Below the pieces are notes generated by a model that was not told the DNA's origin, made no database searches, and worked only from the letters and a program-made list of their open reading frames with translations. This document shows, piece by piece, positions 1,803 through 27,062 of a stretch of 56,231 nt of DNA; position 1 is the stretch's first letter; every line of letters begins with the position of its first letter. Both the position numbers and the translations under genes were made by a program. The stretch is from Bacteroidaceae bacterium. GTDB lineage: Bacteria; Bacteroidota; Bacteroidia; Bacteroidales; Bacteroidaceae. Where the stretch lies: NCBI GenBank assembly GCA_017556045.1, contig JAFZFF010000072.1:1-56231 (forward strand). Reading direction: 5' to 3'.

Positions 1803-4800
1803 ATGAAAAAGCATTTGTTAACACTAGTGATGTTGCTCATGGGTTCAGTGGCATGGGCACAGGGCCAAAGTGGAAGTGGATGGACAAATCCAGCGAGTGA
1901 GTATCCTGCTCATACGGTGGTGTATCTGGCAATCCAGAGTGATAATTACGATGTCTTGCACACGGATGAGGGCGCTCCTGCGTATCCCGAAGTGGCCGCT
2001 TTCGTAGGTGGCGAACTTCGTGGTTGGGCCGACACCGAAAGCCTATTAATCAGTCCAGAGGACAAGACTTCCATCTTTAATCTCCGTGTCGGTGGTACCA
2101 TTGGTACAGATGAGAATAAGGAGATAACCTTCCAAGTATACGATTCGAAGACGGGTATTGTCTATCCTTTGTCTTGTGATAATACAATCACCTGGACTGG
2201 CGATGAAACTGGTAACTACCCCTCAGAGTACTACACGATGACTTTTGAGCCAGCTACAGAACTGAAGCTGTATAATGGGGAAGTGGAGATTACTGAGCTT
2301 TCGCTCCACGTAAACGAAGAGGTATCACTCGGTGACTGCACAGCCAAGCTGGTAAACTCTGCCGGTGCTGAAGTGGAGGCTATATTCCAGGGAAAGTGGG
2401 AAATCAATGAGGTATATCCTTATGTCTCTCTTGTAGAGAGCGATGGCGCATTTACGATCAAAGGTATGCAGGAAACTCCCGATGGAGATAAAGATGAGGA
2501 GAATGACTTTGTAGAAGAGGTAATCAGTTACGTAGTAGGTTCACTTGTGGCTCCGATTTCTGTACAGGTATTGCCTGAGTACTTCCCCGTTACCAGTATC
2601 GCCATTGAAGATGTCAATTATTACTGGCCTGGTTATGGTCGACTTGTCATCACTAATGATATGGTTATCTACAATGGTGGTGAGAGTACCCCGACCAACC
2701 CCGGTGTGAAGATTGTATCGAGCAGCAACGAGGATGTAGTGGCTATCGTTGACAATACTTTGAGTTATAAATGTTTTGGCTCATCTAAAATCACTGTAGC
2801 AGCTGTTGATAACGAAGCGGTTACTACCACCTTTACCATAAACATCCTCTCAGCCCTTGAGGGAATGCGTATGGATGGTTATACTGATGATATGCCCTTT
2901 ACCTATGAAAGAAATAGTGACGATGAAGAATATATAAAGCTACCTATGCCATTGTTCGATTGGATAATGGGTGATGACGGTGATTATGTAATCGCTGAGC
3001 GCGATGAAAGATTTACAATAAGCAGTAGTGATGAATCTATCCTCCGCATAGAGGAAGATGGCCAGCAGGCTGTATCACTGAAAAAGGGTACCGTAACAGT
3101 AACCTTCACCAGCGTATACGACCCCACCAAGAGCGTCAAGCTTACAGTTATCACCACTCAACCACCCACAGGTGTAGCCATTACCCAGATTGGAGCCGTA
3201 GAAATAGGAACCGACTCACCTGTAGAACCTGTCGTTGACGTTGCCGTAGGTCAGGGTGTGACAAGCACAGTTAAAATAAATCCTGCCGATGCCGATTTCG
3301 AAAATATCGTTATTATGATTACTGATGCCGATGGTTATTCGCCTATCGATTCTGAAATTGTAACAACAGGAGATCCTATATCGAAAGGTGATGGTACCTA
3401 TGAGTTTACTTTTACATTCTTATCAGTACCTGATGGAGATGTATACCTGCAGGCTATTGTTGATGAAAATTGGAGTTGGAGTGATCGTGTACAGCTCAAC
3501 GTCATCCAAAGTGTTACGGGAATCTCTCCCATTCCTGAGACTATAGACATTTGGGTTGTCGAAGAGGATTTCGGAATGTATACCGGCGAAATCGAAGTAA
3601 CTGTTCTCCCTGAAACAGCTAACAATAAGGCACTTTCTGTAAAGACATCAGATGAGGGCATCGTGACTATAGATAAAGGTCCTTCGGAGAATATATATAT
3701 CTATACTGTACAAGGCAAGGGTACTGCCACCATTACCTTTACGAGCGATGACAATCCTTCGGTATCGGGTACGTGCGTGATTACTGTTAAGAAGAAGGTG
3801 ACATCAATCGAAGTGGAAGGCTTAGGAGAAGCACTCCATAACGATGGTGAACCTCAAACTGTTACGGTAACAATCTTACCCGAGGATGCCGACTACGATA
3901 TGGAGAAACTCAGTGCCAGCGTGACATGTAGCGACATGTATCCTGAAGACTGGGAATTTGTGGCCATAGAGGAACTCTCTGTGGAAGACAATACTGCAAT
4001 GTACTCTGTAGTCGGACGTTCACTTTGTAGCTATGTAGGAATTACATTCGAGTATGATGCTATAGAGCAAGGAGAAGGTGATATCGTTGAATATCAAACA
4101 GAGATAAGTGTACGTGAGAAAGTTTGTTTCACACCTGGTTGGAACTGGACTTCAATTATCTCTGGTTGGATTTTTGTAAATGACATGGAAGGCACCCTTG
4201 ATGAGATGCGTAGCCAATCAGCTCTGATTATTGATGACCCCGTTTGGGGACTCTTCGGCAACCTCTATGAAATGGACAATAGCCAAGCTTACAAGGTCAA
4301 AACTAAAGTAGATGCCGACAACTACGAATTTGTCGTTGGGGAGAGTATGCTTAATGAAGAAGGTAGAGTTGAAGATATTACACTTGAGCATGGATGGAAT
4401 TGGAAATCTTACCCCTACGAATATGCTTATTACGTTTCTGATATCTTCGAGGCAGAACAGTTCAATGAAGGCGATAAGATTCTTTCCAAGAATGATGGTT
4501 TTGTTACCCTAACCGAAGGTATTTGGGAAGGTAACCTTGATGTGCTCAGACCCAACCAGGGATACTTGATATACTCAACTGTAGAGACAGGTGAACAAGC
4601 TGTAGTGAATATGCCTAACCGTTATGAACTTGAGCAAGGAACCTTTGAGAATCGATCTCAGGCTCCCCAACGCGAACGATTGGTTTGGAATTATGATGGC
4701 AGTCGCTTTGCCAACACGATGGCTATTATTGGTCAAATTGATGTTCAAGATGCCGAGGACTATTCTATTGGTGCTTTTGTAGGCGATGAGTGTCGCGGAA

Positions 4801-5171: not shown

Positions 5172-5180
5172 CATAGACAA

Positions 5181-5217
5181 GGGCTTGCAGAAGCAAAAAA
5201 CAGGCTTCTGCAAGCTC
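5181..5217 (+). terminator. Intrinsic terminator or attenuator
   Basis: A 14-bp stem, GGGCTTGCAGAAGC (5181-5194) with GCTTCTGCAAGCTC (5204-5217), has one G-T wobble and a 9-base loop, and is followed by TTATATT. It lies 9 bases after the 1122-aa gene and 22 bases before the next start codon. There is no promoter-like sequence in those 22 bases, so partial read-through is likely if the genes are co-expressed. Confidence 0.7.
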
Positions 5218-5239
5218 TTATATTCTAACAAGACAAATT

Positions 5240-7054
5240 ATGAACAAGAGGCCGATAATACTACTTTTGTGCATTCTCCTAAGCGCCAATGCTCGTATGG
5301 CTGCTCAGGATATTGCATCCATAGCGAAGAGCGACCCCCTCATTATCTCTGGCGCTATAGGTACTCAAAATACTTTCTATCACACATCTGGTGGCTATGG
5401 CTATGCTTCGCCACTATCGACCTCATTGTATGCTAACTTAAATATCAATGTGTACGGTATAAGTATGCCGTTTTCTTTCTATTATACGGGCGACAACACT
5501 TCATTCAGCTATCCGAGGTTTTCATTCAATATAAGTCCTACCTATAAGGGATGGACTCTCCATATGGGACAACGCACAATGTCGTTCAGTCCCTATACCT
5601 TTACCATGCCGTTTAATGGTGTGGGGGTCGAGTATCGCTCACAAAAAGCGGGTCTGCGTTTCGGTGCTTTCTATGGAACACTGCGCAAGGCCGTTAACGT
5701 CGATCCTACCGACCCAGTTGCACGTAATCCGAGCTACCATCGTACAGGTATGGGCTTGAAGATAGGTTACGGAAGCTATAGTAGTTATATAGATCTTTAT
5801 GTGTTCCGTGGTAAGGATGACCTCAACTCTATCAGCAAATATTGGCACGACCAACTCTTCGCTCAGGAGAATGTTGCCGTCGGCCTACGCACTCGTCTGG
5901 CCTTAGGAAATCACTTTTCGTTCAGTGGTAACCTGGGTACTTCAGTGTTTACAACTGACCTTACTTCTGAAATTCCTGATATCGAGCTGACCGATAAATA
6001 TGGCAAATATTATGACATACGTATGAGTTCGCTCGCCCGTTTTGCCGGTGATGTGGCATTCAGCACGAACTGGAAGCATTTCTCCGCTTCTCTCTACTAC
6101 CGACTCATCCAGCCCGACTACACCTCGTTGGGCGTATCCTATATTACCAACAATATGCAGAGTATTGGAGTCAACGCAGGCACTAATCTCGGACGCTTCT
6201 CAATGAACGGTAACTTCAGTGTGCAGAATGATAATCTCAATGGCGAGCAATTGTACACTACACGTGGTTACGTATATTCTGCCAATGCCTCCCTCCCCTT
6301 GGAGTGCGGAATTCATTTGGCTGCTAATTACAACGGCTATACACAAAAGCAGTATGATGGAGCTGCAATAGTGCAAGACAGCAGCCGTGTATATCGTGTG
6401 ACTAATAGTTTCTCGTTCTCACCTTCGTATGAGTTTAGCAATAAATATACCTATAATAACATCTCTCTCTCTGCAAACTATACTCGTAATGACGACCTTA
6501 ATCCTTTCGCTACAGGTGAGAGCGATGTCCAGACATTAGCAATTGGTGCAGGTTATAATATTTCGGTCATTCCTATTGAGACGGGCTTTGCACTCAATTA
6601 TAGCCACCAGCAGTCCGAAGGATATGGCTCTAAGTACAGCACCGATGTCTACTCATTGACAAGTTCGCGAGCCTTCCTCGAATCGCGAGGTCTCAACGCT
6701 TCGCTGACTCTTTCGCTTATCAATAATTCGATGGATGGCAATGGGAATAATCTATCGATGGGTGGCAATATGAGTCTCTCCTATACACTGCTTAAGGTAC
6801 ATAGCTTCTCTTTTATGGCAAGCTATAATCGTTATGTGAATTCGAATATCGTAGAGGAACAATACCTGCCCCAACAGCGCAGTCATGATATCATGTGCTC
6901 ATTGAGCTACAACTATACATTCTCGGCCTTGTCCATTAAACGACAAACGGAGGAGGCCTTGAAGGGTGACAAAAAGAAATACATCATTACTTCTGATTTT
7001 ACCAAGAAGAGGAGTAGTGAGGAAAAACGTAAAATGGGAGGACCTAGATTATGA
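5240..7054 (+). CDS. Predicted outer-membrane beta-barrel protein
   Basis: 604 residues with a signal peptide (MNKRPIILLLCILLSANARMAAQ). The rest is made of alternating amphipathic strands rich in Tyr, Ser, Asn and Gly (for example FSFSGNLGTSVF, HFSASLYYRLI, FSFMASYNRYV), as in outer-membrane barrels, and no long hydrophobic helix. The last 40 residues are Lys/Arg-rich (KKKYIITSDFTKKRSSEEKRK), an unusual periplasmic or cytosol-facing style of tail for a barrel. The stop codon overlaps the next start (ATGA), so it is translationally coupled to the 3181-aa giant gene. A role as anchor or export partner for that protein is inference from coupling. No enzyme or transporter family was recognised. 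Confidence 0.7.
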   Translation: MNKRPIILLLCILLSANARMAAQDIASIAKSDPLIISGAIGTQNTFYHTSGGYGYASPLSTSLYANLNINVYGISMPFSFYYTGDNTSFSYPRFSFNISPTYKGWTLHMGQRTMSFSPYTFTMPFNGVGVEYRSQKAGLRFGAFYGTLRKAVNVDPTDPVARNPSYHRTGMGLKIGYGSYSSYIDLYVFRGKDDLNSISKYWHDQLFAQENVAVGLRTRLALGNHFSFSGNLGTSVFTTDLTSEIPDIELTDKYGKYYDIRMSSLARFAGDVAFSTNWKHFSASLYYRLIQPDYTSLGVSYITNNMQSIGVNAGTNLGRFSMNGNFSVQNDNLNGEQLYTTRGYVYSANASLPLECGIHLAANYNGYTQKQYDGAAIVQDSSRVYRVTNSFSFSPSYEFSNKYTYNNISLSANYTRNDDLNPFATGESDVQTLAIGAGYNISVIPIETGFALNYSHQQSEGYGSKYSTDVYSLTSSRAFLESRGLNASLTLSLINNSMDGNGNNLSMGGNMSLSYTLLKVHSFSFMASYNRYVNSNIVEEQYLPQQRSHDIMCSLSYNYTFSALSIKRQTEEALKGDKKKYIITSDFTKKRSSEEKRKMGGPRL

Positions 7055-10000
7055 AAGCCAGACGTATATATATCCTTTTAGTATTGTTTGTTTTAACTGT
7101 CATACACTCTTCTGTATCGGCACAGCAGGCACATGTTAATGTAACTCGTTTGCAGAACCCTTTGCCTCCACAAATTTCAACCTATTATGAAAATCCTGGA
7201 CGTTTCTTCTCTGTCTCAGTTACTAATACTGATACAAAGATCCCTATACCTGTACGTTTGGAATTTTCATTGGTAGGTCCCATTGATGGTGGAGCAGATA
7301 TCTGGCCTGCATCAAGTAGTTCATACTTTATGCTGACAGGAAAACAAAGTCTTCCTACTGGCTTTATCATAGCGCCGGGACAGACCCGCTACATCAGCAG
7401 TATGGAACTCAGTCAGCATATGATGTCTTATCCCAGCTCATCATATTATGCCGGTGGTGCCATCAGTACAGCTATGACTAGTGCTAAGGAGGGTGTTTTC
7501 GGTCTATTGGACGAGGGACATTATGGAATCAAGATGATAGCCAAAACAAATTACGATGGCGAAGCTGGAGATATTATTGGTGAATCAACCTGTTTCTTTG
7601 ACATCTGTTATTCGGCTACAGCTCCCTCTTTCACCAATCCACAACCGGAAGGGTTTGATTTTTCGTCTGAATATGACGTCATTCGTTTCCCGACTGAGTA
7701 TGCCCATTTCGAATGGACAATACCTCAATTCAATATACAGTCACTGGCAAGAAACCGACAGTTCTCATACGAGTTCAAACTCTATCGCATGCTGCCCAAT
7801 CAGTCGCCAGAAGAAGCGGTAGCCAGTAACGGTATAGCTTTCCAGCAACCTGGTTTGTTAACCCCATTCTGTAATATTCCCTATAATATAGTGGAAAACC
7901 TTAGACGTGGTGGAACCAAACATTTTGTTGCGCAAGTCACAGCTACGCCTGTAGTTTCGGATGCACACAACCCTGACTATACCTTGATCAACAATAATGG
8001 CAAGAGCGCACTCATGGTGCTGAAATTCGCCGATGACGACACGGATAATAGTGGCGTGGTAGATAATGGACTTGTCATTGATAAAGGAGATGTCGGTGAA
8101 CAGGATTTCAAGGTGACAGTTGAACCGAAGTTTACCAAACTTACGAACGAACTTGCGCCCTATTTTGAGACCCCTGCAAAGCTCTTCCGTCTCACAATTG
8201 AGAACAAAACCACTGAGGATCGTACAATATCTGTACTCCTTCAGTTCTTCAAGGATAATTGGGGAGTATGCCCTTCGCCCAATATGCAACATTCGACCAA
8301 GTCGCTGACTATCATGGCTGGAGAGACGCTGACACTTTCCGACGAACAGCTCAACGATCTGGCTGGTGGATACGATTATGACGATGTCATTGCTTTCAAA
8401 GCCAAAACAGGTTTTATCATAGGAAAGCCTGCTCAAAATACTTTCCCGGGCACAGATTATACGGTGTCGGCTCGCATATGTAAGTTCACAGGTAAGCCCG
8501 TATTGCGTGAAGAGGTGTATGGAAGCGCTCGTGCTGATTTTATCACCGATGGTGAAGTGAATACTGACGATATATTCAAGATAACTTTTGAGAGTCGCAT
8601 TGATCCTATTCCGACCAATGTCACAACGCTTTTCACTCAACCATCGCGTCACTTTACTGCCCGCATTGAGAATCTAAGCAATATCCCTTATGACTTGCGT
8701 CCAACACTACATTACAAGCTATTGGGAGACACCATCTATACGGGAGGATATGCTGATCGTTTTCGCGAATCATTGCATGTCGAGCCTGGAGAAGTTCTCG
8801 AGCTCAGTGATATGAGTTTCAATGAAATGTGTGGAGGATTCACTGAGATCTTTAAGATCTATGATAATGGAGAACGTATAGATACTGTTCGGGATTTCAG
8901 TACCGTACTCCCTGCTCCTGATGGTAATTTAGTGGAATTGGCTCTGTATGATGCAAAAATATTAAGTGAACTCTATCCCGAAGATAAGGATTATGCATCC
9001 AAGGCATCTCTGCAACATGCTTATGTCGAACTATCCTCATCGGCTTCAGCATTTATGGGTGACGTTGATGTTACGATTACTCCGAAGAGTGCCCAAATGC
9101 CGGGGAATATCGGCGCATACTTCAACAAGACTTCTCAGCTCTTTGAGGTGACGCTAACCAATACGACTAATCGTATGCTTAAAGTTTCGCCACGTCTACT
9201 ATATATGTTAGGCGATAATAGTAGCATACAGAAGGTAAATGGTACACCATATGCACAGTACTACATAGCATTGAAACCTCGTGATAGTTATACACTTACA
9301 GAGGATGACCATCGTACTTTCTTTACGAGCACAAGCATACTCAGTTATACTGTGGATGATAAGGACCAGTTCGCTGAGATCCCAGATACCATTCAGATAG
9401 TCCCCAATTTCTTCAACGACGAAGATAACATTATATCATTTGATGAAGAGAACTTAGCCCATATTGATGTTTTTGACTATGATCTTCTGCAAATGGATAA
9501 GGAAAACCCCTCCGATGCAATCAGAGGTAAGGGAGATTGCGAGTTCATGTCATCTTCAGAGTATCAACTCTACGACGTCAATGTTAATGTTACACCACTG
9601 ATGAATCCGATGCCTGGTGATGGTAATGCTTACGCGAAATTACCTGGTAAATTGTTTGGCATAACACTCACCAACAATACGGATCAGCCAATTCGAGGTA
9701 TCCCCTCCATCCGATACAAATTTAAGGATAAGACATATGTATACTCGCCTTTGGTCGAACAATATGGAGAAGAATACTATTTATTGGAGCCGAAAGCAAA
9801 GATAACATTACCTGCGACTGACTTTACTCGTCTAGCTGGTGGTGATCGTATGATTCGTACAGGTGGTGAGACTACTCGCGACACATTGGATACGCTTGAC
9901 GGAATACTTGACCTGGAAAACGAGAATAGTGTTTGTGTTTTATTGGTAGACTACGACACCCTAAAGGTGCTTGCCGAGGAGAATCCTGATAATATGGCAC

Positions 10001-13000
10001 GCATCTTACGTGGAGCTGCTGCCTATAACTTTATGGCAGACTCTGCTGTACATATTGGAGATGTGACCATTACCATGACCACTCGCGATGGTAAGATGAG
10101 TGAAAATGCGACCGATTACTTCACGACTCCAGGGAAGTATTTCGATATTAAATTACGAAATACAGGTAGCAATCCACAGAAGGTAGGATTGCGCCTAACC
10201 TTGAACAATAAATATTATGGAGTCTCCGACAGTACTCTTATATTGCCCCCTGATAGTACGGTAAATCTTACAGAGACTCAACTCAACAATCTGTGTGGAG
10301 GTATTCCTTCAGAACGTATTTTTCAATTGGACACTCTTGGAAGTGACATCCAGCGCAAGGTTGCTCAGGAGATGAAGCTTCTTGATGGACAGAACAGTGT
10401 ACAAGCACTTGTATGGCAACTTTCCCAGGGTAAAGAACTATCCCAAATGGGAGAAAATGTAGACACGTTGGCTCTCGATAGCACCACATTCATCACCTCA
10501 TTCCGCGATGTTCAGATAGGCGAATTTGTTCTCTCTATACAAGAATCCCAACCTGTAGCAAAAAAAGACTCCTGCTACAGCGGAAAGGGTTATATTACCT
10601 GGAATGCGATGGGATTCCCCATGAGAATAGCTGTAGAGTTCGACTCTATCTATATTAACAAGGAAGCCGTAGTCTATCGTGGTCTTGTCAAATCTGCTCA
10701 GCGCAAAGGATTCGGAAATATCATCCCCTACGACATTTTCGATGGTGTCATTGATGCCAACGATGTGGAGAAAGCCAGTGAAAAGATTGAAGGTATGCTT
10801 TCTGGTACGGACTTTGCTCAATATTACAGTTATGCGACGGAGACTCTGGAAGCCATACCTATGACTTTTCAAGAAGGTCAGGCTATGCTCACCCTACCAC
10901 TCCGTATGCCAGAGTATCTAAAGGAAGAGAGCCCAGTTGACATCCAATTGCTCAGCATGGAGTTTCATCCTGATAAAGCCAATATGAACTTGTTGGCAGA
11001 ATTTGTACTTCCCGAAACCAATTATGTCACTTCGTCCAAAAATATATTGATATTCGGTGCCCCGCATCTGAGTATGTCTGATACGACACTTATCCCCAAA
11101 TCTGGAGAATTGGCGTTAATGACTGATTTGACAATTAAAGATCCCTCTTCGGGATTCAATATCACTTTCCTTGCTCCCAACAGTAAGGAGCCTCTTAGCA
11201 ATAGCGGTTGCTTTGTAACTTGGGAAGATGGTGAATTTGGCGAATTTGTTGTAGATGCCAAAATGGCGATTCCGAGCGAAGATATTCTTAAAGACGTAGA
11301 AGGAAAAGTCTCGGAAGGAGTAGCACCTGATATTCGCTTGACCGCACGTATTGCAGATAAGGAGGATTGGTTTGGACAGATTCGCATGGATGCATTCCAA
11401 TTGAAAGATGCTCCTGGTTATACCTTCGCTTTGGCAGGTAATGAAGCAGGTGTCCTTTATGACCATTCAAAACGAACTACACCTATTGGAGTAACTATAC
11501 CTGATGAGTATGATTGGGAACAAGCTGGACTTAAGAAAGGAGAGCTGAATGAATGGCAGGGATTCTATTTTGAGGAGCTCAGCGTACAGCTGCCAGAGTT
11601 TATCGAACTCAATGATGGCGGAGGTGACAAGCGCCTGAAGATAGGACTGCACCACACGATATATGATGACTCTGGTTTCTCGTGTGAGTTTGCCGCCAAG
11701 AATATCTTTGACCAGCACACCACTTCAATGGGTGGTTGGCGTATGTCGCTGGACGAGATTAACCTCACCATCCTGCAGAACGAATTCTCTAAGTTTGGTT
11801 TCAATGGAGAGTTTGAAGTTCCGTTACTCGAGGGTACTATCGGGTACGATGCCAAGGTGTTCTATGCCGACAAGAATACAGGAAAGGCCATTGCTAAGGA
11901 AAGTTCAGAGGAGAAGCAAACCGTAGCATCCGAAGAAGTCGATCGTGAGAATAGAGCCATCAAAATGATTTTTGAAACCCGTCAGACTGATAGCTTAAAA
12001 CTTGATTTCTTTGCCTGTGAGACTAATTTCAAGAAAGAAGAGACCTACTTTAATATCGTGTATTTCAACGAGGAGACAGAGGTGCAACTTTGCTTGGGAG
12101 GTACTATGAATATAGCGGGCGTAAAATCAGATAAATCGCCAATTAGTTTTGCTATCCCTGGTATCGATTTCTATGGTATGCGTTTGGCTAATTTTGAACG
12201 CAAAGAGGCTCTGCAGAATAATCTCTATTCCTTTGCATCCAAGTCGGGAGATTTCCATTTCGACCTTGGCCGTTGGAGCTTGGGCTCTATGGTACTTGGT
12301 GGTGAAAGCAATAAAGATGTAAAGAAGGATGAAGAGAAGAAGGACGAGGAGAAAGAAAATAAGGAAGAAAACGAAAAACTTCCCGAAATAGATTCGAATG
12401 TAGAGTATGGCCTCAATATGGCTGGGTTTAGCATCGGTATAGAGGAGTTCAGTACCGCAACCAATGCAGAGGGGCATTTTGGCCTTTATATCCAAGCCAA
12501 GACCTCACTGATGTCAATGATTACGGCTGAAGCTGGCTTCACTATTTGGGCCTCGATAGATACCAAAGAGATATCTGCCGACTACGAAGGTACCACCTTC
12601 AATGACCTTGAGGTGGAGTCTACGATGGGCGGAATGTACATCAAGGGTAGTCTGTCGGTGAAGAACGATGAGGAGTATGGTGACGGATACGCCGGAGCAT
12701 TGAAATTCCAGCTTCCAGGTAACCTCTTTACCGTAGATGCCAGTGGAGGCTACTTCCGTAAGGAGCATAGTGCAGGGTCAGGGTATACAGGAAAGTACTC
12801 ATGGGGATATTTTGAGTTGGCCGCGGGATCTAAAGCACTAGGTAGTCTGCAGCCTGTCTCTATCACCGAGATTGGTGGCGGATTCTATTTCAACTGCAAT
12901 GACCAGCACAAACCGACCTATGGTGTTGTGGGTGGCAAGTTCCTCATCGGGCTTACCGCTGGAGGTGATAATGTGATTGCAGGTAAGTTCGATGCTCTGA

Positions 13001-16000
13001 TGCTCTATGATATGGAAAATGATCGCATGACCAAGCTGCAACTGAGCGGAAAGGCTCATGTAATGGGTGGTAGTGTCGACGAAGATGGTGCCATTAATGC
13101 TGACGCAACGATTATATATGAACACACAGATAAAAAGAAATATTTCCAACTTACAGTATCTGTGGATGCTGTAGCTGATATGCAGGATATGGCTGAAAAA
13201 TTGGTTGCAGGGTATGTTCCTGGTATCAAATCTGCTACAGCTGGACTCCAAAGTGCTTTCGGACAAACAGAAGAGGATGTGTCTGATGCAGGTGCACAGC
13301 GCTCAGAGGATGGTAATGAGGGCAAGCAACAGCTCAAGGCCAGCGCAGGAGCGAATATGAACCTCGATCTGCTCATTGAGTTCAAGACGGACGTGAATCC
13401 CAATCCCAAGTGGCACTTGTGGCTTGGCAAACCGCAACCCGAGAGTGAGCGCTGTCAGGTGACTTTTATCGACTTCCAGTTGGGTGATAAGGATGACCCC
13501 ATCGCGATGTGGGCCAAGGTATGGGTAAACGCATATTTCTGTATAGGTAACGACTTGCCTATTGGACAGAATGGCCAAGTGCTTCCTCCTATCCCAGCCG
13601 AAGTCCAAGAATTCCTCGATGGCGATGGACTCGACGGTAAGCGCCAAAATTTATCAGCTACCGCGCAAAGCAAACGTGATGATGCTGTACAGAAGTTACT
13701 CAATGGTGGTATTAAGGGCGGAATGTTGTTTGGATCTGCTGCGGGTGCAACGATAGGTGCTAATATGGCCATTGCCTACTTCGATGTCACGATGATGGGC
13801 GGTTTTGACATTGCTTTGGTCAAACTGGCCGAGGGAGGCAGCAAGTGTTCTAACAACGGTCGTACGATGAGCGGTATCAATGGCTACTATGCCACTGGTC
13901 AGGCCTATGCATTGCTCAAGGGTGAAGTCGGTTTGATGATCAACCTCTGGATATTCAGCGGCAAGATCGCTTTGGTAAAGGCAGGTTTGGGAGCTAATAT
14001 ACAGGTAGGTTTTGCTCATCCGACATGGTTCTATGGCAAGGCTCGAGCCAAGTGTGAACTTTTTGGAGGACTCATCAAGTTTAACCAGGCCATCGAGATT
14101 GAAGCGGGCGACGTATGCGTACCCTACTACGCTAATCCTCTGCAGGACATCCAGATATTCGGTGACGTATATCCCGAATATGACAACAAGAGTGATGGAT
14201 GGGAAGAGGACAACAAAATATCACCCTACGCCATCCCACGCTTCACCACCAACATGCAGATAGGCACGCCTATCCGTCTGCTCGATGAGACCCGTCTGGC
14301 ACAGCTCGAAGCCGACGGCTACAATACCTCGGGTACTGGTTCGAAGAACGCCGAGCGCACCTACCGCTTCATGCTGGGCACACACACCGTCAAGGAGTAT
14401 GCCACCCCGAACGGTTCCCTGGCACGCCAGTACAGCGTGAACGCCATCAACACCACCGGCGACCGCACCAACTACACGCTGGAGCTGGGCGCCCTGAAGC
14501 CCGACACCTGCTACCATGTGCGCCTCATCGGATACGCCCAAGAGCAGAAGGGTGGCGTATGGGGACGTCCCTGGTTCTGCGACGAGGAGTCGAACTACGT
14601 CAACGTGCAGCGCCACTGGGGCGACACATGCGAATTCTACTTCCGCACCAAGTCACTGCCCCCACACATGACCGATGACGATGTCGCCCTTGCACGTCCC
14701 GACAACTGGGACATCGCAGCCAGCTCAGCCAGAGCCTTTATGTCTGAACTGGAGCGCCCCTACCTCTGTATGAAGCGCTCGCGTGCCGACCTCTTCAAGA
14801 GCGGCTACGATATGGTGGCTCGCATCGAATACTGGGGAGGCTCCAAATACAAGACCTTAGGCAAGGAGGTGCCCATCAGGGAATACATCGAGAACGAGGG
14901 CAATGCCAAGTATATCACCTGGCGCGTCACACAACCGATTGATGTCTCCATGCTGCGCAACGAATCGCTCAGGCACGCCACCTACTCTACCCGCTTCACC
15001 ATCCTGCGCATCAACCGCAGCAAGTACAACCAGTACCTCAAAGAGGGTGTGGAGAAGATTGTCAAGAGCAACATCCAGTATGAGAAATCCGAACTTAAGG
15101 CTTCGACAAAACAAGAGTTGGACCTTCTTAATGGCAAAGGAAAGGTTGTTGCTAACAATCAGAAACCTGCAGTCGGACAAAACAGCTTGCGGGGTGGACA
15201 GCTCAATGGATTGGTAGTGCAGGACAGCGACTTTGGTGAAGTGAATATGACCGAACTGTTTGCTCAGTTCGACACCGAGATGCAGGCCGAGATGAAGAAG
15301 GACGAAGTAGAGCATCAGATACGTGACTTTGTGCAGAGCATCGATATGAATGACTTTGCTGAGGTCATCTACACCTATCCGTTCTCTTATGTGTACGAAG
15401 AGACATTGCGCGACTATGTCATCAGCGAGATCAACAAGGGTCGCTTGAATATGGACAATTACAACTTCAATGCCGGTATCGATGTGCTCCTCTACGATCT
15501 CGACGATGAAGATGGTGTGCTCACCTATTCCAAGCAGCGCAGCAATAACACCTTCCTCAATACCACCAAGCAGCGTTGGGCAGGCTCCACCGTACCCTAC
15601 GCCTATGTCAATCCCTACTCGGCGTTCCTCTACCTCACTGATTATGCCTACTATGGAGGTATCGAGATGAAGAACTATAATTACAACCGCACGGGCGACA
15701 TCTACTCCAGTGAGAGTGGTATGTGGAAGACAAGGTCTATCGGCCAGTATTACAAATCTACGCCAACCTATGTGGGTAACCCCCTCTACAGTGTGGCGTA
15801 TCTAGTGTACAATGCCAATACGAAATCAAATACTCTCCATCTTGACCATACACTCTACAACTATGAGTATTTTTGGAATACCCTTACAAAAGATTCAAAG
15901 GGCTGGAATGGTTCACTAGTACTCAACAAGTCGGAGTTCAGCCTCTACAGTTTCCAAGAACGTATGAATCAGATTTCACCCAAGCTGGTTCGCACCAATT

Positions 16001-16596
16001 CCTACACCAAGCGTGACAGCAGGTCGAACCGCTGGCCATATATCCACAACCGCCTGCTCGAAATGATGGAGACAGATGCGTGGCTGGCTCAGATGTTTAC
16101 CCGATCAATGCGCGACTATCAGCGCAGTTTCGAGGACTATGTCGTGAAGAGCAAGACAGCCTCAAAGATTGACATTGATGCCGCAAAAGCAAGGACTTGG
16201 ATGAATACCCGTAGTCATTGGAATCTTAGTGTTGCAGGCCGTGGAGGTGCGAGCCAGTCTGATTACGTCACGCTGAAGGTGTATCAGATACCCTATATGT
16301 ATGGCATACTGAACGACCACGTATATGAGATAATACCTCAGGTGCGCCGCCAATATGCACGCAAGATCATTGACAATACGTACAACTACTATTTCAATGC
16401 ATCGCACTATCTCAATGGTATGGCCTATCTGCAATACCGTTTCATGCGCCCCAACGGCTACAACGTGAAGCAGAACGACGGCACACGCAACACAGGCCTG
16501 GTGGTGCGTCCGGGAGCGGAGAGCACCAACATCTATACGTATAAGTTTACAAAGCCATACAAGAACTATGAGTTCCTCTATGAAGAAACCCGATAA
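7051..16596 (+). CDS. Giant secreted protein, 3181 aa, with six TANFOR-like tandem repeats
   Basis: Signal peptide (MKARRIYILLVLFVLTVIHS..SAQ) followed by six degenerate repeats starting near residues 27, 352, 508, 671, 843 and 1004. Each opens with a V-(D/N/K)-V-T strand, then an aromatic plus P(G/A/S)(K/R) motif and (V/L)TN, and ends with L-P-G ... L ... GG. They resemble the Bacteroidetes TANFOR domain; that assignment is from memory. The middle (about 1150-1750) is beta-rich. A Lys/Glu-rich linker (KKDEEKKDEEKENKEE) sits near 1758. Residues about 1790-2350 hold Gly-rich barrel- or helix-like strands and a conserved-looking GINGYYATGQAYAL segment. The C-terminal 800 residues are Tyr/Asn/Arg-rich. 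There is no typical T9SS tail. Codon use and GC change abruptly inside the gene (AT-rich to about 14,220, then GC-rich, with AT-richer islands). Likely a surface fibre, adhesin or assembly scaffold; function not known. Confidence 0.8.
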   Translation: MKARRIYILLVLFVLTVIHSSVSAQQAHVNVTRLQNPLPPQISTYYENPGRFFSVSVTNTDTKIPIPVRLEFSLVGPIDGGADIWPASSSSYFMLTGKQSLPTGFIIAPGQTRYISSMELSQHMMSYPSSSYYAGGAISTAMTSAKEGVFGLLDEGHYGIKMIAKTNYDGEAGDIIGESTCFFDICYSATAPSFTNPQPEGFDFSSEYDVIRFPTEYAHFEWTIPQFNIQSLARNRQFSYEFKLYRMLPNQSPEEAVASNGIAFQQPGLLTPFCNIPYNIVENLRRGGTKHFVAQVTATPVVSDAHNPDYTLINNNGKSALMVLKFADDDTDNSGVVDNGLVIDKGDVGEQDFKVTVEPKFTKLTNELAPYFETPAKLFRLTIENKTTEDRTISVLLQFFKDNWGVCPSPNMQHSTKSLTIMAGETLTLSDEQLNDLAGGYDYDDVIAFKAKTGFIIGKPAQNTFPGTDYTVSARICKFTGKPVLREEVYGSARADFITDGEVNTDDIFKITFESRIDPIPTNVTTLFTQPSRHFTARIENLSNIPYDLRPTLHYKLLGDTIYTGGYADRFRESLHVEPGEVLELSDMSFNEMCGGFTEIFKIYDNGERIDTVRDFSTVLPAPDGNLVELALYDAKILSELYPEDKDYASKASLQHAYVELSSSASAFMGDVDVTITPKSAQMPGNIGAYFNKTSQLFEVTLTNTTNRMLKVSPRLLYMLGDNSSIQKVNGTPYAQYYIALKPRDSYTLTEDDHRTFFTSTSILSYTVDDKDQFAEIPDTIQIVPNFFNDEDNIISFDEENLAHIDVFDYDLLQMDKENPSDAIRGKGDCEFMSSSEYQLYDVNVNVTPLMNPMPGDGNAYAKLPGKLFGITLTNNTDQPIRGIPSIRYKFKDKTYVYSPLVEQYGEEYYLLEPKAKITLPATDFTRLAGGDRMIRTGGETTRDTLDTLDGILDLENENSVCVLLVDYDTLKVLAEENPDNMARILRGAAAYNFMADSAVHIGDVTITMTTRDGKMSENATDYFTTPGKYFDIKLRNTGSNPQKVGLRLTLNNKYYGVSDSTLILPPDSTVNLTETQLNNLCGGIPSERIFQLDTLGSDIQRKVAQEMKLLDGQNSVQALVWQLSQGKELSQMGENVDTLALDSTTFITSFRDVQIGEFVLSIQESQPVAKKDSCYSGKGYITWNAMGFPMRIAVEFDSIYINKEAVVYRGLVKSAQRKGFGNIIPYDIFDGVIDANDVEKASEKIEGMLSGTDFAQYYSYATETLEAIPMTFQEGQAMLTLPLRMPEYLKEESPVDIQLLSMEFHPDKANMNLLAEFVLPETNYVTSSKNILIFGAPHLSMSDTTLIPKSGELALMTDLTIKDPSSGFNITFLAPNSKEPLSNSGCFVTWEDGEFGEFVVDAKMAIPSEDILKDVEGKVSEGVAPDIRLTARIADKEDWFGQIRMDAFQLKDAPGYTFALAGNEAGVLYDHSKRTTPIGVTIPDEYDWEQAGLKKGELNEWQGFYFEELSVQLPEFIELNDGGGDKRLKIGLHHTIYDDSGFSCEFAAKNIFDQHTTSMGGWRMSLDEINLTILQNEFSKFGFNGEFEVPLLEGTIGYDAKVFYADKNTGKAIAKESSEEKQTVASEEVDRENRAIKMIFETRQTDSLKLDFFACETNFKKEETYFNIVYFNEETEVQLCLGGTMNIAGVKSDKSPISFAIPGIDFYGMRLANFERKEALQNNLYSFASKSGDFHFDLGRWSLGSMVLGGESNKDVKKDEEKKDEEKENKEENEKLPEIDSNVEYGLNMAGFSIGIEEFSTATNAEGHFGLYIQAKTSLMSMITAEAGFTIWASIDTKEISADYEGTTFNDLEVESTMGGMYIKGSLSVKNDEEYGDGYAGALKFQLPGNLFTVDASGGYFRKEHSAGSGYTGKYSWGYFELAAGSKALGSLQPVSITEIGGGFYFNCNDQHKPTYGVVGGKFLIGLTAGGDNVIAGKFDALMLYDMENDRMTKLQLSGKAHVMGGSVDEDGAINADATIIYEHTDKKKYFQLTVSVDAVADMQDMAEKLVAGYVPGIKSATAGLQSAFGQTEEDVSDAGAQRSEDGNEGKQQLKASAGANMNLDLLIEFKTDVNPNPKWHLWLGKPQPESERCQVTFIDFQLGDKDDPIAMWAKVWVNAYFCIGNDLPIGQNGQVLPPIPAEVQEFLDGDGLDGKRQNLSATAQSKRDDAVQKLLNGGIKGGMLFGSAAGATIGANMAIAYFDVTMMGGFDIALVKLAEGGSKCSNNGRTMSGINGYYATGQAYALLKGEVGLMINLWIFSGKIALVKAGLGANIQVGFAHPTWFYGKARAKCELFGGLIKFNQAIEIEAGDVCVPYYANPLQDIQIFGDVYPEYDNKSDGWEEDNKISPYAIPRFTTNMQIGTPIRLLDETRLAQLEADGYNTSGTGSKNAERTYRFMLGTHTVKEYATPNGSLARQYSVNAINTTGDRTNYTLELGALKPDTCYHVRLIGYAQEQKGGVWGRPWFCDEESNYVNVQRHWGDTCEFYFRTKSLPPHMTDDDVALARPDNWDIAASSARAFMSELERPYLCMKRSRADLFKSGYDMVARIEYWGGSKYKTLGKEVPIREYIENEGNAKYITWRVTQPIDVSMLRNESLRHATYSTRFTILRINRSKYNQYLKEGVEKIVKSNIQYEKSELKASTKQELDLLNGKGKVVANNQKPAVGQNSLRGGQLNGLVVQDSDFGEVNMTELFAQFDTEMQAEMKKDEVEHQIRDFVQSIDMNDFAEVIYTYPFSYVYEETLRDYVISEINKGRLNMDNYNFNAGIDVLLYDLDDEDGVLTYSKQRSNNTFLNTTKQRWAGSTVPYAYVNPYSAFLYLTDYAYYGGIEMKNYNYNRTGDIYSSESGMWKTRSIGQYYKSTPTYVGNPLYSVAYLVYNANTKSNTLHLDHTLYNYEYFWNTLTKDSKGWNGSLVLNKSEFSLYSFQERMNQISPKLVRTNSYTKRDSRSNRWPYIHNRLLEMMETDAWLAQMFTRSMRDYQRSFEDYVVKSKTASKIDIDAAKARTWMNTRSHWNLSVAGRGGASQSDYVTLKVYQIPYMYGILNDHVYEIIPQVRRQYARKIIDNTYNYYFNASHYLNGMAYLQYRFMRPNGYNVKQNDGTRNTGLVVRPGAESTNIYTYKFTKPYKNYEFLYEETR
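7129..10500 (+). repeat. Six tandem protein-domain repeats in the giant gene
   Basis: Repeat units begin near bases 7129, 8107, 8575, 9064, 9580 and 10063. Spacing is about 156-172 codons except the first unit, which carries an insertion. Signature openings are VNVTRLQNPLPPQISTYY, FKVTVEPKFTKLTNELAPYF, FKITFESRIDPIPTNVTTLF, VDVTITPKSAQMPGNIGAYF, VNVNVTPLMNPMPGDGNAYA and VTITMTTRDGKMSENATDYF. DNA identity is low, so these are old duplications at protein level rather than recent DNA repeats. Confidence 0.75.
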
Positions 16597-16609: not shown

Positions 16610-18922
16610 ATGACAATGATGATACGACATATTGCAAGAAGAGTAGCCTCACTGCTGTTGACAGTGGGCATAGCCACTACGCTGATGGCACAGACCGATG
16701 ATGAGAAACCTGTATTGACCGACCTCAGTACTCTACCTACCGACTCGGTGGTGGAGCCGCCACATGCCTACAACATATATGTAACTACACGCTCCTACGA
16801 TGACAACATCTATATCCGCTGGGCCCCCGATGAGTATGTACCCTGGCGCACGCTCAACTATTGGGGCTACGATGTGGTGCGTGTGTGGCAGGATAAGGAC
16901 GTCATCGAAATGGACACGCTGGCACGTGTGAAGCCGCTATCGCTGGAGCAGTTCATCGAGTCGTTCGAGGCCAGCGACACACTGGCAGCTGCAGCTGCCG
17001 AGATTATCTACGGCAAGCGCACTGAGATAGGTAATACCGAGGCGCACCCGAACTCCATGGCATCCATCGTGGATCTGATGGAGGAGCAGCAGATGGTATA
17101 CAGCTACGCCATGCTCATCGCCGAGCAGCGGCGCGACATTGCCATAGCCATGGGTCTCGCCTTCGAAGACCGCACGGCCAGGGCCAACCGCGTGTACGAC
17201 TATGTGATAGCTCCCGTGGTGCCTGACTCTGTGCTCCGTATCAACCAATATGTCACCCGAGCCGACAAACTGGGCACGTGGAAACCTGAGCGCTACACCA
17301 CCACCATCACCGACTCCATACAGCCCCCTGCCAATGTGCTGCTCAAGTGGCAGCGCACACAGCAGTTCACCGCTTTCAGCATAGAGCGCCGCTGCGTGAG
17401 CAGGGGAGGGGAGTGGACTACCCTCAACGACAAGCCCTACATCATGATGCTTCAGGCCGAGGAGTACGAGGACGGATACAACCGATACCTTGACGAGATG
17501 GTACAGCCTGGCATCTACGAATACCGCATCAAGGGTTATGACATGTTTGGCGACCTGTCGGCTCCCTGCGCCTCACACCGCGTGGAGATGCCCGACCTCA
17601 TGCCGCCAGCTGCTCCACTCATCAAATATATAGAGATCATACGCCACGAAGACAGCCACCGCATCGATGCCCGCATCTTTATCCAGAAAGACACCATCGA
17701 GGAGGATCTGATGGGCTACATCCCCTTCTACCAGAACGAGAGCTACCAAGGAAATATTGGACAGTCTTTGCTGGATAGTATAGCTGGACAATTGTCGCAA
17801 GAACAAAAACAACTCTTGGACGAAGGACGCATGATGCCATTGGTAACAGATCCGATATCTCCTGATAATACAATACTTACAGTGGATGTTACGGGATTGG
17901 AAAGTGGTAAAATTATTGTAGTTGCTACAGATACCGCACTTAATATGACACATTCCATGCCGATACCCATACATATTGCGGATCTTAATCCTCCAACTCC
18001 TCCTTCTCATTTGCGTTCAGCGATGAGCCTCGATGGTGTATTAATGCTAAGCTGGACACCTTCACCGGAAGTTGATATCGAGGGATATGAAATCTATTGG
18101 GCGAATGATCCTTCTCAGACATTTATGCAAGTTGGTAGTTTTTATAAGAAGGACACCATGTTTATGGATACATTGTCACTGGCTACAGCAGAGCCATATC
18201 GATATTATTACGTTAAGTCTCGTGATTATTCAGGAAATGGTTCTGTGCCTTCAGATACATTACGTGTAGAACGACCAACTAACATCAAGCCACAGACTTG
18301 CCGTGTTGATTCATTATGGATGACATCAAAAACCGTAAATATGAGATGGTATCCTTCGCCAGAACCAGATGTGCTCAGTTATCATGTGTACAGACGCCTC
18401 GAAGGGGAAGATTCTTGGGAAGTGATACTCAAGTTGTCGCCAGACTCTTTGGTTAATAATAGGCTCTACATCGTGGATTCTCCTGCGCCTAATATGAATA
18501 AGCGCTATTACTATGCCATAGAGACTACAAACCGTAGTGGATTGTCGTCGGGTATGTCAATACAGACCTCTTTCCTTTTTAAAGGCGAAGTAGTGTTGCC
18601 TATCGAGATTAAACTCTTCGGACAGTTTAATGAGGAAACGAAAAAAGCTCAGTTGGCATGGGAGATTAATGGACTTACTGATGATATTAGAAAAGATGCA
18701 TATCTCGTGATATCACGTAAGAAAGATACAGACGAATTCTTCCGTTTCTTAAAGTCTGTATCTGTCAATGATGCACATACGATAGACCATAAACTTAACC
18801 CGGGTGAGGTCGCTGAATATGAAATTCGTTTACGCACAAATGAGGGAAGATTTAGTCCTTATAGCAATGTTGTTAAAGTGGAAAATACGTGTATGCCCGA
18901 AGATTCTAACGAGAGTAAATAA
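16610..18922 (+). CDS. Exported fibronectin type III protein
   Basis: About 770 residues. The ATG at 16610 gives a compact signal peptide (MTMMIRHIARRVASLLLTVG..LMAQ); in-frame ATGs at 16568 and 16580 would overlap the giant gene and make the peptide too long. Fibronectin-III-like modules are visible: NIYVTTRSYDDNIYIRWAPD near the start, PPANVLLKWQRTQQFTAFSIERR in the middle, and two clear units near the end (TPPSHLRSAMSLDGVLMLSW..YEIYW, and VDSLWMTSKTVNMRWYPSPEP..YHVYRR). No enzyme motif was found. Composition switches sharply near 17,745: upstream is GC-rich with C-ending codons, downstream AT-rich. It follows the 3181-aa gene by 13 bases. Probably an extracellular or periplasmic structural partner of that protein, by context. 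Confidence 0.75.
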   Translation: MTMMIRHIARRVASLLLTVGIATTLMAQTDDEKPVLTDLSTLPTDSVVEPPHAYNIYVTTRSYDDNIYIRWAPDEYVPWRTLNYWGYDVVRVWQDKDVIEMDTLARVKPLSLEQFIESFEASDTLAAAAAEIIYGKRTEIGNTEAHPNSMASIVDLMEEQQMVYSYAMLIAEQRRDIAIAMGLAFEDRTARANRVYDYVIAPVVPDSVLRINQYVTRADKLGTWKPERYTTTITDSIQPPANVLLKWQRTQQFTAFSIERRCVSRGGEWTTLNDKPYIMMLQAEEYEDGYNRYLDEMVQPGIYEYRIKGYDMFGDLSAPCASHRVEMPDLMPPAAPLIKYIEIIRHEDSHRIDARIFIQKDTIEEDLMGYIPFYQNESYQGNIGQSLLDSIAGQLSQEQKQLLDEGRMMPLVTDPISPDNTILTVDVTGLESGKIIVVATDTALNMTHSMPIPIHIADLNPPTPPSHLRSAMSLDGVLMLSWTPSPEVDIEGYEIYWANDPSQTFMQVGSFYKKDTMFMDTLSLATAEPYRYYYVKSRDYSGNGSVPSDTLRVERPTNIKPQTCRVDSLWMTSKTVNMRWYPSPEPDVLSYHVYRRLEGEDSWEVILKLSPDSLVNNRLYIVDSPAPNMNKRYYYAIETTNRSGLSSGMSIQTSFLFKGEVVLPIEIKLFGQFNEETKKAQLAWEINGLTDDIRKDAYLVISRKKDTDEFFRFLKSVSVNDAHTIDHKLNPGEVAEYEIRLRTNEGRFSPYSNVVKVENTCMPEDSNESK

Positions 18923-18923
18923 T

Positions 18924-19652
18924 ATGGGAAAAAGTAAATCTTTGATACTATGTATAGTGCTGATGACACTAACTTCATGTGCCGAGTTCTTCGAATTCAT
19001 TGAAATCGCAGAACGCACGGTACTAAATCCACTGTACAATGTCGAATTGTCACCAAATAGAGTTGATCTCTTGGTGGGTGATTCGGTTATTTTTAACACC
19101 GAAGTACTGCCAGATACAGCGGAAGCGACCTATCGTTGGTTTCTGTCAGACGCAAAAACGTCTGTGGTAAGCATAATAGGAAAACGTCTGTACGCTCGTA
19201 ATGAGGGAACTGTAACTGTGTATGTGGAGGCGTTACCACCGGGGATGACTTCTGATGATGTCCCTGCGGATAGTATGGTCATAGATTCATGCATGGTGAC
19301 GGTCTCGCGTCGAATAGAAATTCCATCTTTTGAATTCCCTTACGAAACGATTGTTATAGCTGCATTGGAACTAGCTGACACATTGGTCACTGATCCCGTT
19401 GAGGCTGCTCGTTTGACGGCATTGGTTGACGGTGAGGTTCGTGGACATGCTGAGGTTCGCAATGCTTTTGGCATTGATTATTTGGAACTTCGTATTGGTA
19501 GTCGTAAATCTTATGGAGAGGAAGTCACCATAGATTACTATAATCGCGAGTTGAGAAGAAGACATGTATTTACAACATTTATATTGGATGGTGAGACTCA
19601 TGGTACACTCTCCGATCCTATAGTATTCAAAGTGTCTTCTGAGAGTTTGTAA
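18924..19652 (+). CDS. Lipoprotein with Ig-like and AFVGDE-RG-type domains
   Basis: 242 residues. The start at 18924 gives MGKSKSLILCIVLMTLTSCAE, a standard lipobox (LTSC) ahead of Cys; the longer in-frame reading from 18804 lies inside the previous gene and is not used. It begins 1 base after the previous stop. Residues about 30-130 look like a Big_2 Ig-like domain (VELSPNRVDLLVGDSVIF). The C-terminal part (ALVDGEVRGHAEVRNAF ... GEEVTIDYYNRELRRRHVF) resembles the AFVGDE-RG domains found twice in the 1122-aa T9SS protein at the left end of the block. Location is inferred as the outer membrane or cell surface. Confidence 0.75.
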   Translation: MGKSKSLILCIVLMTLTSCAEFFEFIEIAERTVLNPLYNVELSPNRVDLLVGDSVIFNTEVLPDTAEATYRWFLSDAKTSVVSIIGKRLYARNEGTVTVYVEALPPGMTSDDVPADSMVIDSCMVTVSRRIEIPSFEFPYETIVIAALELADTLVTDPVEAARLTALVDGEVRGHAEVRNAFGIDYLELRIGSRKSYGEEVTIDYYNRELRRRHVFTTFILDGETHGTLSDPIVFKVSSESL

Positions 19653-19680: not shown

Positions 19681-20208
19681 ATGAAACGTTTACTTATATC
19701 ACTTTTATGGGTAAGTCTTTTGCCCGTAGGAATCTATGCTGAAGATGAGGTGAAGATGTATAGCTACGTAACCTTGATGCTACACGATGGGGCGAAATAT
19801 AATATCCCCATTGAACATGGTTCGCAGATATACTCTTATGCAAGAGGCATAGGCACGAATACCTATTTTGTAGTAGATGTCACAGGAAAGGATTGTTACT
19901 ATCAGTTCAGACGCGAGGAGATAGCCTCTATGAAACTAGTGGAAGACACGATCAACCATACGGATATAGAGATTATATACGAACAGCCAGTTCTTAATGA
20001 TGCACACCAATCGAAACTACATTATCGGAAGGGTGAACTATTGGTACACCATACACTCAACGGAGAATGGCTAACCATAGTGGATCTTCGTGGAAGACAG
20101 ATCTATGCAACCCGCGTAGAAACACCCTTTGCTTTAGATTTGGGATTCCTTCCTGAAGGGACCTATATTGCTAGAATTAATGAACACACCCTAAAAATTA
20201 GAAAGTAA
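19681..20208 (+). CDS. Small secreted protein with T9SS-like C-terminal domain
   Basis: 175 residues: signal peptide (MKRLLISLLWVSLLPVGIYA), an unrecognised domain of about 95 residues (MLHDGAKYNIPIEHGSQIYSY), and a terminal segment (WLTIVDLRGRQIYATRVE ... GTYIARINEHTLKIRK) matching the pattern of T9SS sorting domains: a D-x-x-G-R/K turn, then G-x-Y-x-x-x-I and a basic end. The stop overlaps the next start as TAATG, implying translational coupling with the 1124-aa protein. Probably a small cargo or cap protein; no function recognised. Confidence 0.7.
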   Translation: MKRLLISLLWVSLLPVGIYAEDEVKMYSYVTLMLHDGAKYNIPIEHGSQIYSYARGIGTNTYFVVDVTGKDCYYQFRREEIASMKLVEDTINHTDIEIIYEQPVLNDAHQSKLHYRKGELLVHHTLNGEWLTIVDLRGRQIYATRVETPFALDLGFLPEGTYIARINEHTLKIRK

Positions 20209-23582: not shown

Positions 23583-23596
23583 AATTGATTTAGAGA

Positions 23597-24175
23597 ATGA
23601 ATAGAATTGTAACTACTAATCTTGTACACTACCTACCGACAATAATCATCGGATTGTTGTCGGTAGCATTGGTGTGCCTAATATGGATGCTTGGACAAGC
23701 TCGAAGAAAACAAAAACAGTTAGAGCAGAAAATAAGACTTTTGGAACTAGATACTCCTGTTAAGACAGAACCTGAAATTAAAAGCTGCGTTGAGAATCCC
23801 AACAATATAGATAAAACTTGTCAAATAGAAATAGAACACATACCTGAAAACCTATTTGTCGCCCATGTGGATCAGCTGATTATACGTAATATCTCTAGTC
23901 CTGAATTTACAGCAAATACAATAGCTGACATTCTACATCTTTCAAGAACCCAACTTGATAGGCGTATGAAGCAGTTGGTTGGTAAAACGATTTCAGCATA
24001 TCTACTGGATAGGCGTATGATGCATGCGCGCGAGTTATTGCTTACTTCTGACATGCCGATAGTTGATGTCGCTGTAAAATGTGGATTTGATGACACAAGT
24101 TACTTCTCCAGAGTATTTCGCAATTACCATAGCAAAACTCCCTCTGATGTAAGAAAAGAGGAACGCAAAGATTGA
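23597..24175 (+). CDS. Membrane-anchored AraC-family regulator
   Basis: 192 residues. One N-terminal transmembrane helix (TIIIGLLSVALVCLIWMLG, about residues 16-34), a short basic coiled-coil-like segment (ARRKQKQLEQKIRLLE), a linker, and an AraC-type double helix-turn-helix at about 95-188 (LSRTQLDRRMKQLVGKTIS; VAVKCGFDDTSYFSRVFR; TPSDVR). It has no ligand-binding or receiver domain of its own. The DNA-binding part is closely similar to the C-terminus of the 937-aa hybrid kinase next door. It starts 14 bases after the previous stop, so it belongs to the surface-protein operon. Direct control of that operon is inference. Confidence 0.8.
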   Translation: MNRIVTTNLVHYLPTIIIGLLSVALVCLIWMLGQARRKQKQLEQKIRLLELDTPVKTEPEIKSCVENPNNIDKTCQIEIEHIPENLFVAHVDQLIIRNISSPEFTANTIADILHLSRTQLDRRMKQLVGKTISAYLLDRRMMHARELLLTSDMPIVDVAVKCGFDDTSYFSRVFRNYHSKTPSDVRKEERKD

Positions 24176-24191
24176 AAATGTTTAGTTGTCG

Positions 24192-24222
24192 TTGACAATT
24201 GTCGTGAAAAGAGTTACCTTTG
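24192..24222 (+). promoter_or_regulatory. Promoter of the hybrid kinase gene with palindrome
   Basis: TTG (24192-24194), 20 bases, then TACCTTTG (24215-24222) fits the Bacteroidetes promoter pattern; the start codon is 27 bases on. A perfect 10-bp palindrome, GACAATTGTC (24194-24203), overlaps the -33 element and could be a repressor or activator site. This suggests the kinase is transcribed apart from the operon. Confidence 0.6.
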
Positions 24223-24248
24223 TCTAATCGAAGTAATATAATCTCACA

Positions 24249-27062: not shown

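Follow-up and report, generated by a model that had tools for sequence, protein, structure and literature searches.

A predicted outer-membrane barrel and TANFOR-headed giant proteins as a candidate surface-display or export unit of Bacteroidota

What kind of system is built around a 3181-aa protein that matched no Pfam or NCBIfam model and yielded no domain? This giant, P0003 (7051–16596, plus strand), lies in the window, by which we mean the whole stretch of DNA analysed, 56,231 nucleotides from a Bacteroidaceae bacterium. The initial annotation had read the genes around it as one undescribed machine, with a barrel anchor, a giant fibre or scaffold, FnIII accessories and a dedicated sensor. 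Our analysis suggests that the barrel and the giant, whose head is TANFOR-like, on balance probably represent a phylum-wide surface-display or export unit, and that the version in the window lacks a toxin signature.

Organisation and conservation of the locus

All nine open reading frames of the row were present where they had been placed, all on the plus strand. The first, P0001 (1803–5171, 1122 aa), is an Ig-like protein with a T9SS type A sorting tail (TIGR04183, 30.5 bits against a cut-off of 23). It is followed by P0002 (5240–7054, 604 aa), the giant's partner and a predicted outer-membrane beta-barrel, by P0003 itself and by P0004 (16568–18922, 784 aa), an FnIII-type partner. P0005 (18924–19652) encodes a Big_2-like lipoprotein (15.1 bits, below the cut-off) whose start was set by eye, and shares with P0001 a domain of about 110 residues (hhalign, 98.8%). 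P0006 (19681–20208, 175 aa) carries a weak T9SS tail, and P0007 (20208–23582, 1124 aa) a strongly amphipathic beta pattern over approximately residues 200–750. The row closes with two regulators, as the initial annotation had proposed, both with clear domain matches: P0008 (23597–24175), of the AraC type (HTH_18, 84.4 bits) with an N-terminal membrane helix recognised by eye, and P0009 (24249–27062), a TPR hybrid histidine kinase with response regulator and AraC domains. Other labels fared less well. The T9SS tail held for P0001 but not for P0006 (18.7 bits), the FnIII label of P0004 fell just short (fn3, 23.9 bits against a cut-off of 25), and P0007 had no fn3 match, only sub-threshold matches to other families.

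The reported overlaps were likewise found, P0002 and P0003 sharing an ATGA at 7051–7054 and P0006 and P0007 a TAATG at 20208. The P0003 and P0004 frames overlap by 29 bases if P0004 is counted from its first ATG. The P0005 frame was listed from a GTG at 18804; its signal, which like the other signal peptides of the locus was called by eye, starts at the ATG at 18924, 1 base past the P0004 stop. Further intergenic gaps measure 28 and 14 bases, with 68 bases between the first two genes and 73 between the last two. No exact site for the Bacteroidetes-type promoter pattern that we applied occurred between 1.8 and 27.06 kb, and sigma-70-type sites in a scan of 1.2–8.2 kb were as numerous as in shuffled sequence. 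Upstream of the operon, at the left contig end (2–1387), lies a VapE-like gene (PF05272), which may point to a mobile element; short tandem repeats with units of 10, 14 and 7 bases occur at 27827–27865 and 55568–55815.

Using residues 1101–3181 of P0003 as query, we found matches in 47 of 399 same-family genomes (the window's included), spread over 12 of 30 genera. Neighbourhoods were taken for 31 giants from a subset of the genomes with a match. They comprise 27 window-type loci from 26 genomes, the window included, three distant short versions (G008, G360 and G049) and one locus truncated at the edge of its contig (G010b). Among the fetched relatives whose giant is full-length, the closest is a Bacteroidaceae MAG of sheep-rectum origin (L007, JAFXEF010000033.1). 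The barrel and the FnIII protein flank the giant in 27/27 loci. Relatives of P0001 occur in 26 (all except G393) and of the lipoprotein P0005 in 23 (missing from G010, G361, G393 and G217), and a P0009-like kinase or regulator lies at most 8–9 genes away in 17, some of these matches being weak. P0006 and P0007 were each matched in only 7 of the 27; in 19 loci the third downstream frame encodes 751–919 aa with no profile link to either. The gene order thus recurs in other genera beyond chance, and the idea of a single machine survives as a conserved unit from which P0006 and P0007 drop out. Because this unit is conserved and the barrel is strongly associated with the giant throughout the phylum, the barrel partner, the giant and the FnIII accessory can be regarded as a genetic module; the fibre, scaffold or adhesive function first proposed stays conjectural.

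TANFOR homology and the pairing with a predicted barrel

P0003 consists of six tandem, divergent TANFOR copies, a core of about 1200 aa and a fast-evolving C-terminal part. All six TANFOR-like domains were delimited by a repeat profile (residues 28–166, 7132–7548; 353–488, 8107–8514; 509–643, 8575–8979; 672–815, 9064–9495; 843–977, 9577–9981; and 1005–1131, 10063–10443). The core (residues 1160–2370, 10528–14160), defined by conservation, hhalign and an amphipathic beta pattern, is nearly constant in length (1176–1370 aa in 27 loci). The C-terminal part (residues 2371–3181, 14161–16593) ranges from 668 to 2695 aa across the same loci, and in the window it is about 34% identical to its counterpart in the closest full-length giant fetched, against 60% in the core.

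The repeat profile was built from six internal repeats of P0003 spotted by eye. It counts six copies in the window giant, eight in a giant from the window's genus (G134), seven apiece in a further four giants and a single copy in every remaining one, and after iteration it extended to five TIGR02542 proteins, matching their TANFOR domain. A non-circular profile, made from 27 giant N-termini and no TIGR02542 protein, matched six of the 133 open reading frames in eight TANFOR loci, all of them TANFOR proteins (E values 1.7e-12 to 4.5e-5); the other three of the nine TANFOR proteins there (that of T710 and the two of T596) escaped it, and it matched 0 of the 124 other frames. In the reverse search, each of the 30 matches listed was either a TANFOR protein or a giant, and the window giant was not one of them. 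Profile–profile alignment of the giant N-terminus with TANFOR gave 98.7% and an E value of 1.8e-16 over 201 columns (hhalign). TIGR02542 itself matched neither P0003 nor anything else in the window genome. On these profile comparisons, the N-terminal domain of P0003 is homologous to TANFOR. The giant is therefore not of a wholly unknown kind, as had been supposed, since its head is a tandem array of a domain described for polymorphic toxins of Bacteroidetes.

The assignment to a known system extends in part to the neighbours, since relatives of the core, the barrel and the FnIII partner are all encoded in loci that contain TIGR02542-positive proteins. We fetched eight such loci. Seven contain a barrel homologous to P0002; in the exception, T606, the barrel lies elsewhere in the genome, outside the fetched locus. 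All eight encode an FnIII protein that matches P0004 to some degree, in five of them strongly, and six match the giant profile. The order barrel, TANFOR protein, FnIII protein is found in T786, T685 and T710, and in T645 one gene intervenes ahead of the FnIII gene. T600, T712, T596, G008 and G360 encode the core as a protein of its own, homologous to the P0003 core (hhalign, E 3.6e-79), and each nearby TANFOR protein is followed by a smaller gene. Between the window-type and TANFOR-locus families, hhalign gave E values of 1e-87 for the barrel and 2e-56 for the FnIII protein.

Across the phylum, the barrel profile matched 85 of 395 genomes and the core profile 45. The barrel was present in 43 of the 45 core genomes (all except G602 and G614), against 85/395 overall (Fisher p 4e-31). 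Counted from the listed positions, 38 of these 43 genomes carry barrel and core no more than about 21 kb apart on a single contig, and five (G494, G663, G701, G760 and G776) have them on different contigs. TIGR02542 was found in 12/395 genomes, with all scores below its cut-off, and the barrel in all 12 (p 5e-9). The barrel is thus seen far beyond the reach of TIGR02542.

An iterated TANFOR profile, which takes in the signal-peptide stretch and left all non-TANFOR frames of the set unmatched, matched 56 of 814 open reading frames in 55 loci, every match beginning within the first 71 residues of its frame. Of these, 43 are the large frame directly downstream of the barrel, and the remaining 13, from the same loci, comprise TANFOR proteins and additional TANFOR-headed frames. 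Viewed from the barrel, 47 of 53 barrel-profile frames are followed by a same-strand frame of more than 2 kb, and 43 of the 47 are TANFOR-positive; as exceptions, four precede a large frame without TANFOR and six have no adjoining large frame. The 43 stem from loci chosen by the giant (28), by TIGR02542 (4) and by the barrel alone (11). The barrel-only sample comprised 16 loci (L145–L160), hand-picked and non-random, from 42 barrel genomes without a core match. A TANFOR-positive frame adjoined the barrel in eight of them before iteration (10 of 169 frames matched, all in those eight loci) and in 13 after it, a count that includes L152, with a short frame, and L153, where the barrel was placed by profile-match coordinates only. 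In L158 a single frame carries both TANFOR and barrel matches. TIGR02542 reported none of the L145–L160 genomes, and the NCBI model seems narrow. Because the barrel family is wider than TIGR02542 and 13/16 barrel loci are TANFOR-headed, one partner gene could serve to find numerous as yet unnamed giants of the cell surface in Bacteroidota, both from the gut and from the environment.

The barrel call itself draws on strand periodicity, a crude measure of our own. Mean values were 1.31 for the core, 1.25 for the barrel family, 1.21 for the P0007 family and 1.15 for the P0001 and P0005 families, against 0.93 for both the giant C-termini and 85 background frames, one of which exceeded 1.2. All-beta soluble Ig proteins also raise the measure, as the P0001 family illustrates. 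P0002 resembles the outer-membrane protein control in its periodicity, which together with aromatic C-termini seen by eye supports its prediction as an outer-membrane beta-barrel. AlphaFold2 models of the core and of the barrel, each from a two-sequence alignment, reached a pLDDT of 27 and were left unused, so that the term barrel refers to sequence periodicity and these C-termini. Searches against the sequences of solved structures returned nothing for the barrel; the core gave a single match, to a ribosomal protein (E 0.0028), that we regard as due to chance. PorP_SprF was absent from the matches of 20 barrel family members at E values up to 0.1.

DUF6603 was considered as the identity of the core and rejected: 6 of 18 members matched it (best E 2.8e-7), and of two members examined more closely one gave a partial match below the cut-off and the other none. 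We found no mention of DUF6603 in the open-licence papers searched. Among viral contigs, 37 stretches with the pattern contained 0 relatives of the system.

Candidate export routes

The TANFOR domain class is already published: Jana, Salomon and Bosis (2020; PMC7073777) described TANFOR-containing polymorphic toxins with TANFOR as the N-terminal head and hypothesised T9SS as their exporter. The word barrel is absent from the main text of that paper, which leaves the export route of TANFOR proteins open; the barrel, adjoining the majority of TANFOR-headed genes, is a concrete candidate. The open-licence papers listed in our searches yielded no account of the barrel, the core or the two-gene unit, and it is this unit, possibly with a new pathway behind it, that may be new. 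The tandem genes of Flavobacterium collinsii, judged from the available part of their description (PMC9950754), are unrelated.

The pairing, the homology, the repeat structure, the conservation and the giant's lack of a detectable sorting tail, all established at the level of sequence, underlie the following model. The operon would encode a surface-display unit of barrel P0002, giant P0003 and FnIII partner P0004. The giant would leave the cytosol via Sec, as the signal peptide recognised by eye suggests, and its TANFOR head would dock on the barrel, which would either export the giant or anchor it at the surface; we infer this docking because the genes pair and the head is common to cargoes that otherwise differ. 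A stalk could arise from the tandem TANFOR copies together with the FnIII protein, the beta-patterned core might sit at or in the outer membrane, and the variable C-terminus may be an exposed tip. T9SS would export the Ig protein P0001 and perhaps P0006, both of which would join the structure, and control probably lies with the kinase and the AraC-type genes. In other loci this head and barrel accompany toxin-type proteins; to judge by the window copy, the module may have been put to new use, with no toxin, in a surface structure under regulation.

Two roles of the barrel both fit by analogy, anchoring of the SprF kind and a pore of the two-partner-secretion kind. In two-partner secretion (TpsB–TpsA, type Vb), a barrel gene is paired with a giant cargo gene, and the cargoes share an N-terminal head with a variable rest. 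The system described here is alike in its barrel–giant gene pairing, common head and variable remainder. It differs in that searches of P0002, P0003 and 20 barrel relatives returned no POTRA, filamentous-haemagglutinin or two-partner-secretion head. Analogously, the barrel and the TANFOR head might constitute a Bacteroidota secretion pathway of their own, independent of T9SS, with TANFOR as the export signal and the barrel as the pore. We advance this only tentatively, on the recurrent pairing, the dissimilarity of the cargoes apart from the head, the lack of sorting tails in the cargoes tested and the G008 locus discussed below. With equal reserve, such a pathway could be imagined to serve toxins, giant fibres and other cargoes.

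The alternative is that T9SS exports the giant and the barrel only anchors it, as SprF does for SprB in Flavobacterium johnsoniae, and we grant it a similarly limited chance. According to the relevant part of PMC9143113, SprF is a PorP-like barrel to which SprB attaches through its C-terminal region; there, SprB–SprF and PorP–PG1035 pair a T9SS type B substrate with a barrel, and the present system resembles them in its large surface protein and dedicated outer-membrane barrel. In the window assembly (2.54 Mb, 104 contigs, 78% complete) GldM was found and SprA was not; with the tail of P0001 and, weakly, that of P0006, a T9SS substrate lies nearby and T9SS is present. SprA_N was also enriched with the giant inside the family (41 of 47 genomes with it against 18 of 33 without, p 0.002), as a T9SS-dependent giant would give, and GldM was found in five of the six SprA_N-negative giant genomes (G000, G134, G256, G279 and G010), being absent only from the sixth, G008. 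Outside the family, SprA occurred in 48/48 system genomes, but it says nothing there, being nearly universal (14/15 comparison genomes). Against T9SS export of the giant, NCBIfam searches gave no type A or B sorting tail in P0003, nor was a tail found in five further TANFOR-headed giants or in the two TANFOR proteins of G008, and the barrel has no PorP_SprF match.

The G008 genome (99% complete, three contigs) bears on this question. It had no match to SprA, GldM or PF18962 genome-wide, and for that reason looks T9SS-negative, yet it holds a toxin-type TANFOR locus. Its two TANFOR proteins share 97–100% identity across the first 900 residues; where the following 100 residues align, identity is 93%, and beyond approximately residue 1000 it is only 20–29%. 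In sequence terms, this break is the mark of a polymorphic toxin. Neither these proteins nor the genes that follow them matched a toxin or immunity family, so the term toxin-type refers to the identity pattern and the published class. The locus also encodes a PKD lipoprotein, a SusD-like protein and a partial SprB-repeat protein. The last scores 35.5 bits with TIGR04183 (cut-off 23), although no single stretch passes and the best stretch lies off its end, and 21.5 bits with PF18962. Because this one non-TANFOR protein scores on a T9SS tail model, the locus may be an import, maybe recent and from a T9SS host, into a host where it is silent; the canonical core occurs in 1 of 15 genomes of the genus, G008 itself, the other match (G207) being of the window's type. 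The G008 locus and the missing sorting tails together tilt us toward a dedicated barrel partner.

As an arrangement, the G008 locus (L076/L077) is also of note for uniting two toxin-type TANFOR genes, small following genes, barrel, core and FnIII gene. A similar toxin-type TANFOR locus in G360 (L092/L093) stands beside genes that by eye resemble those of a conjugative element.

Transport and toxin readings, and divergent relatives

Outer-membrane-like periodicity inside otherwise secreted-looking proteins, as in the giant core (10528–14160) and in P0007 (20208–23582), is a peculiarity of this locus. It could be taken to mean an envelope-spanning device that transports lipids or glycans, in which P0003 and P0007 provide TamB-like grooves through their amphipathic beta regions. 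The core and P0007 family values stand well above the 0.93 background, and weak matches to TamB in P0007 (E 0.0067) and to YhdP in a relative (E 0.016) point the same way. Both matches are far below their cut-offs, however, and the TANFOR, FnIII, Ig and T9SS-tailed parts point outward, which makes transport an improbable explanation.

The giant could also itself be a polymorphic toxin with its toxin domain at the C-terminus. It shares with the published TANFOR toxins (PMC7073777) an N-terminal TANFOR by profile comparison and T9SS-tailed and FnIII neighbours, and homologues of its barrel, core and FnIII protein stand in TIGR02542-positive loci. It differs in its six TANFOR copies, in a core fused to the head and in the lack of a TIGR02542 match, an exchanged C-terminus or an immunity gene. 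Its C-terminus evolves fastest, and in seven pairs of window-type giants identity falls in that direction, in one pair by a step from 82% to 46%. The lowest full 200-residue blocks in these pairs nevertheless keep 28–31% identity, most lying well above, and none of the seven falls to unrelated sequence, in contrast to the TANFOR pair of G008. Most giant C-termini can be aligned over much of their length across genera; those of G110, G361, G217, G337 and G345b align only partially with most others. The FnIII gene directly follows the giant in 27/27 loci (gap −122 to +151 bases), with no immunity gene between them. Since the C-termini mostly align and no gene intervenes, we do not file the giant, which has no domain match of any kind in Pfam or NCBIfam, as a toxin, and consider that reading very unlikely.

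Some relatives of the giant and its core have unusual features. A 4866-aa giant from G200 (L049:3-3233) ends in four L7/L12 C-terminal domains (PF00542, E 2e-52), which is odd for an exported protein, and the ends of three more giants from the same genus look alike by eye. Relatives of the core are also borne on plasmids, in Bergeyella porcorum (pQD2021; L143) and in Persicobacter (L144); that of L143 lies close to FnIII genes and a gene with a deaminase domain, in frames that look interrupted.
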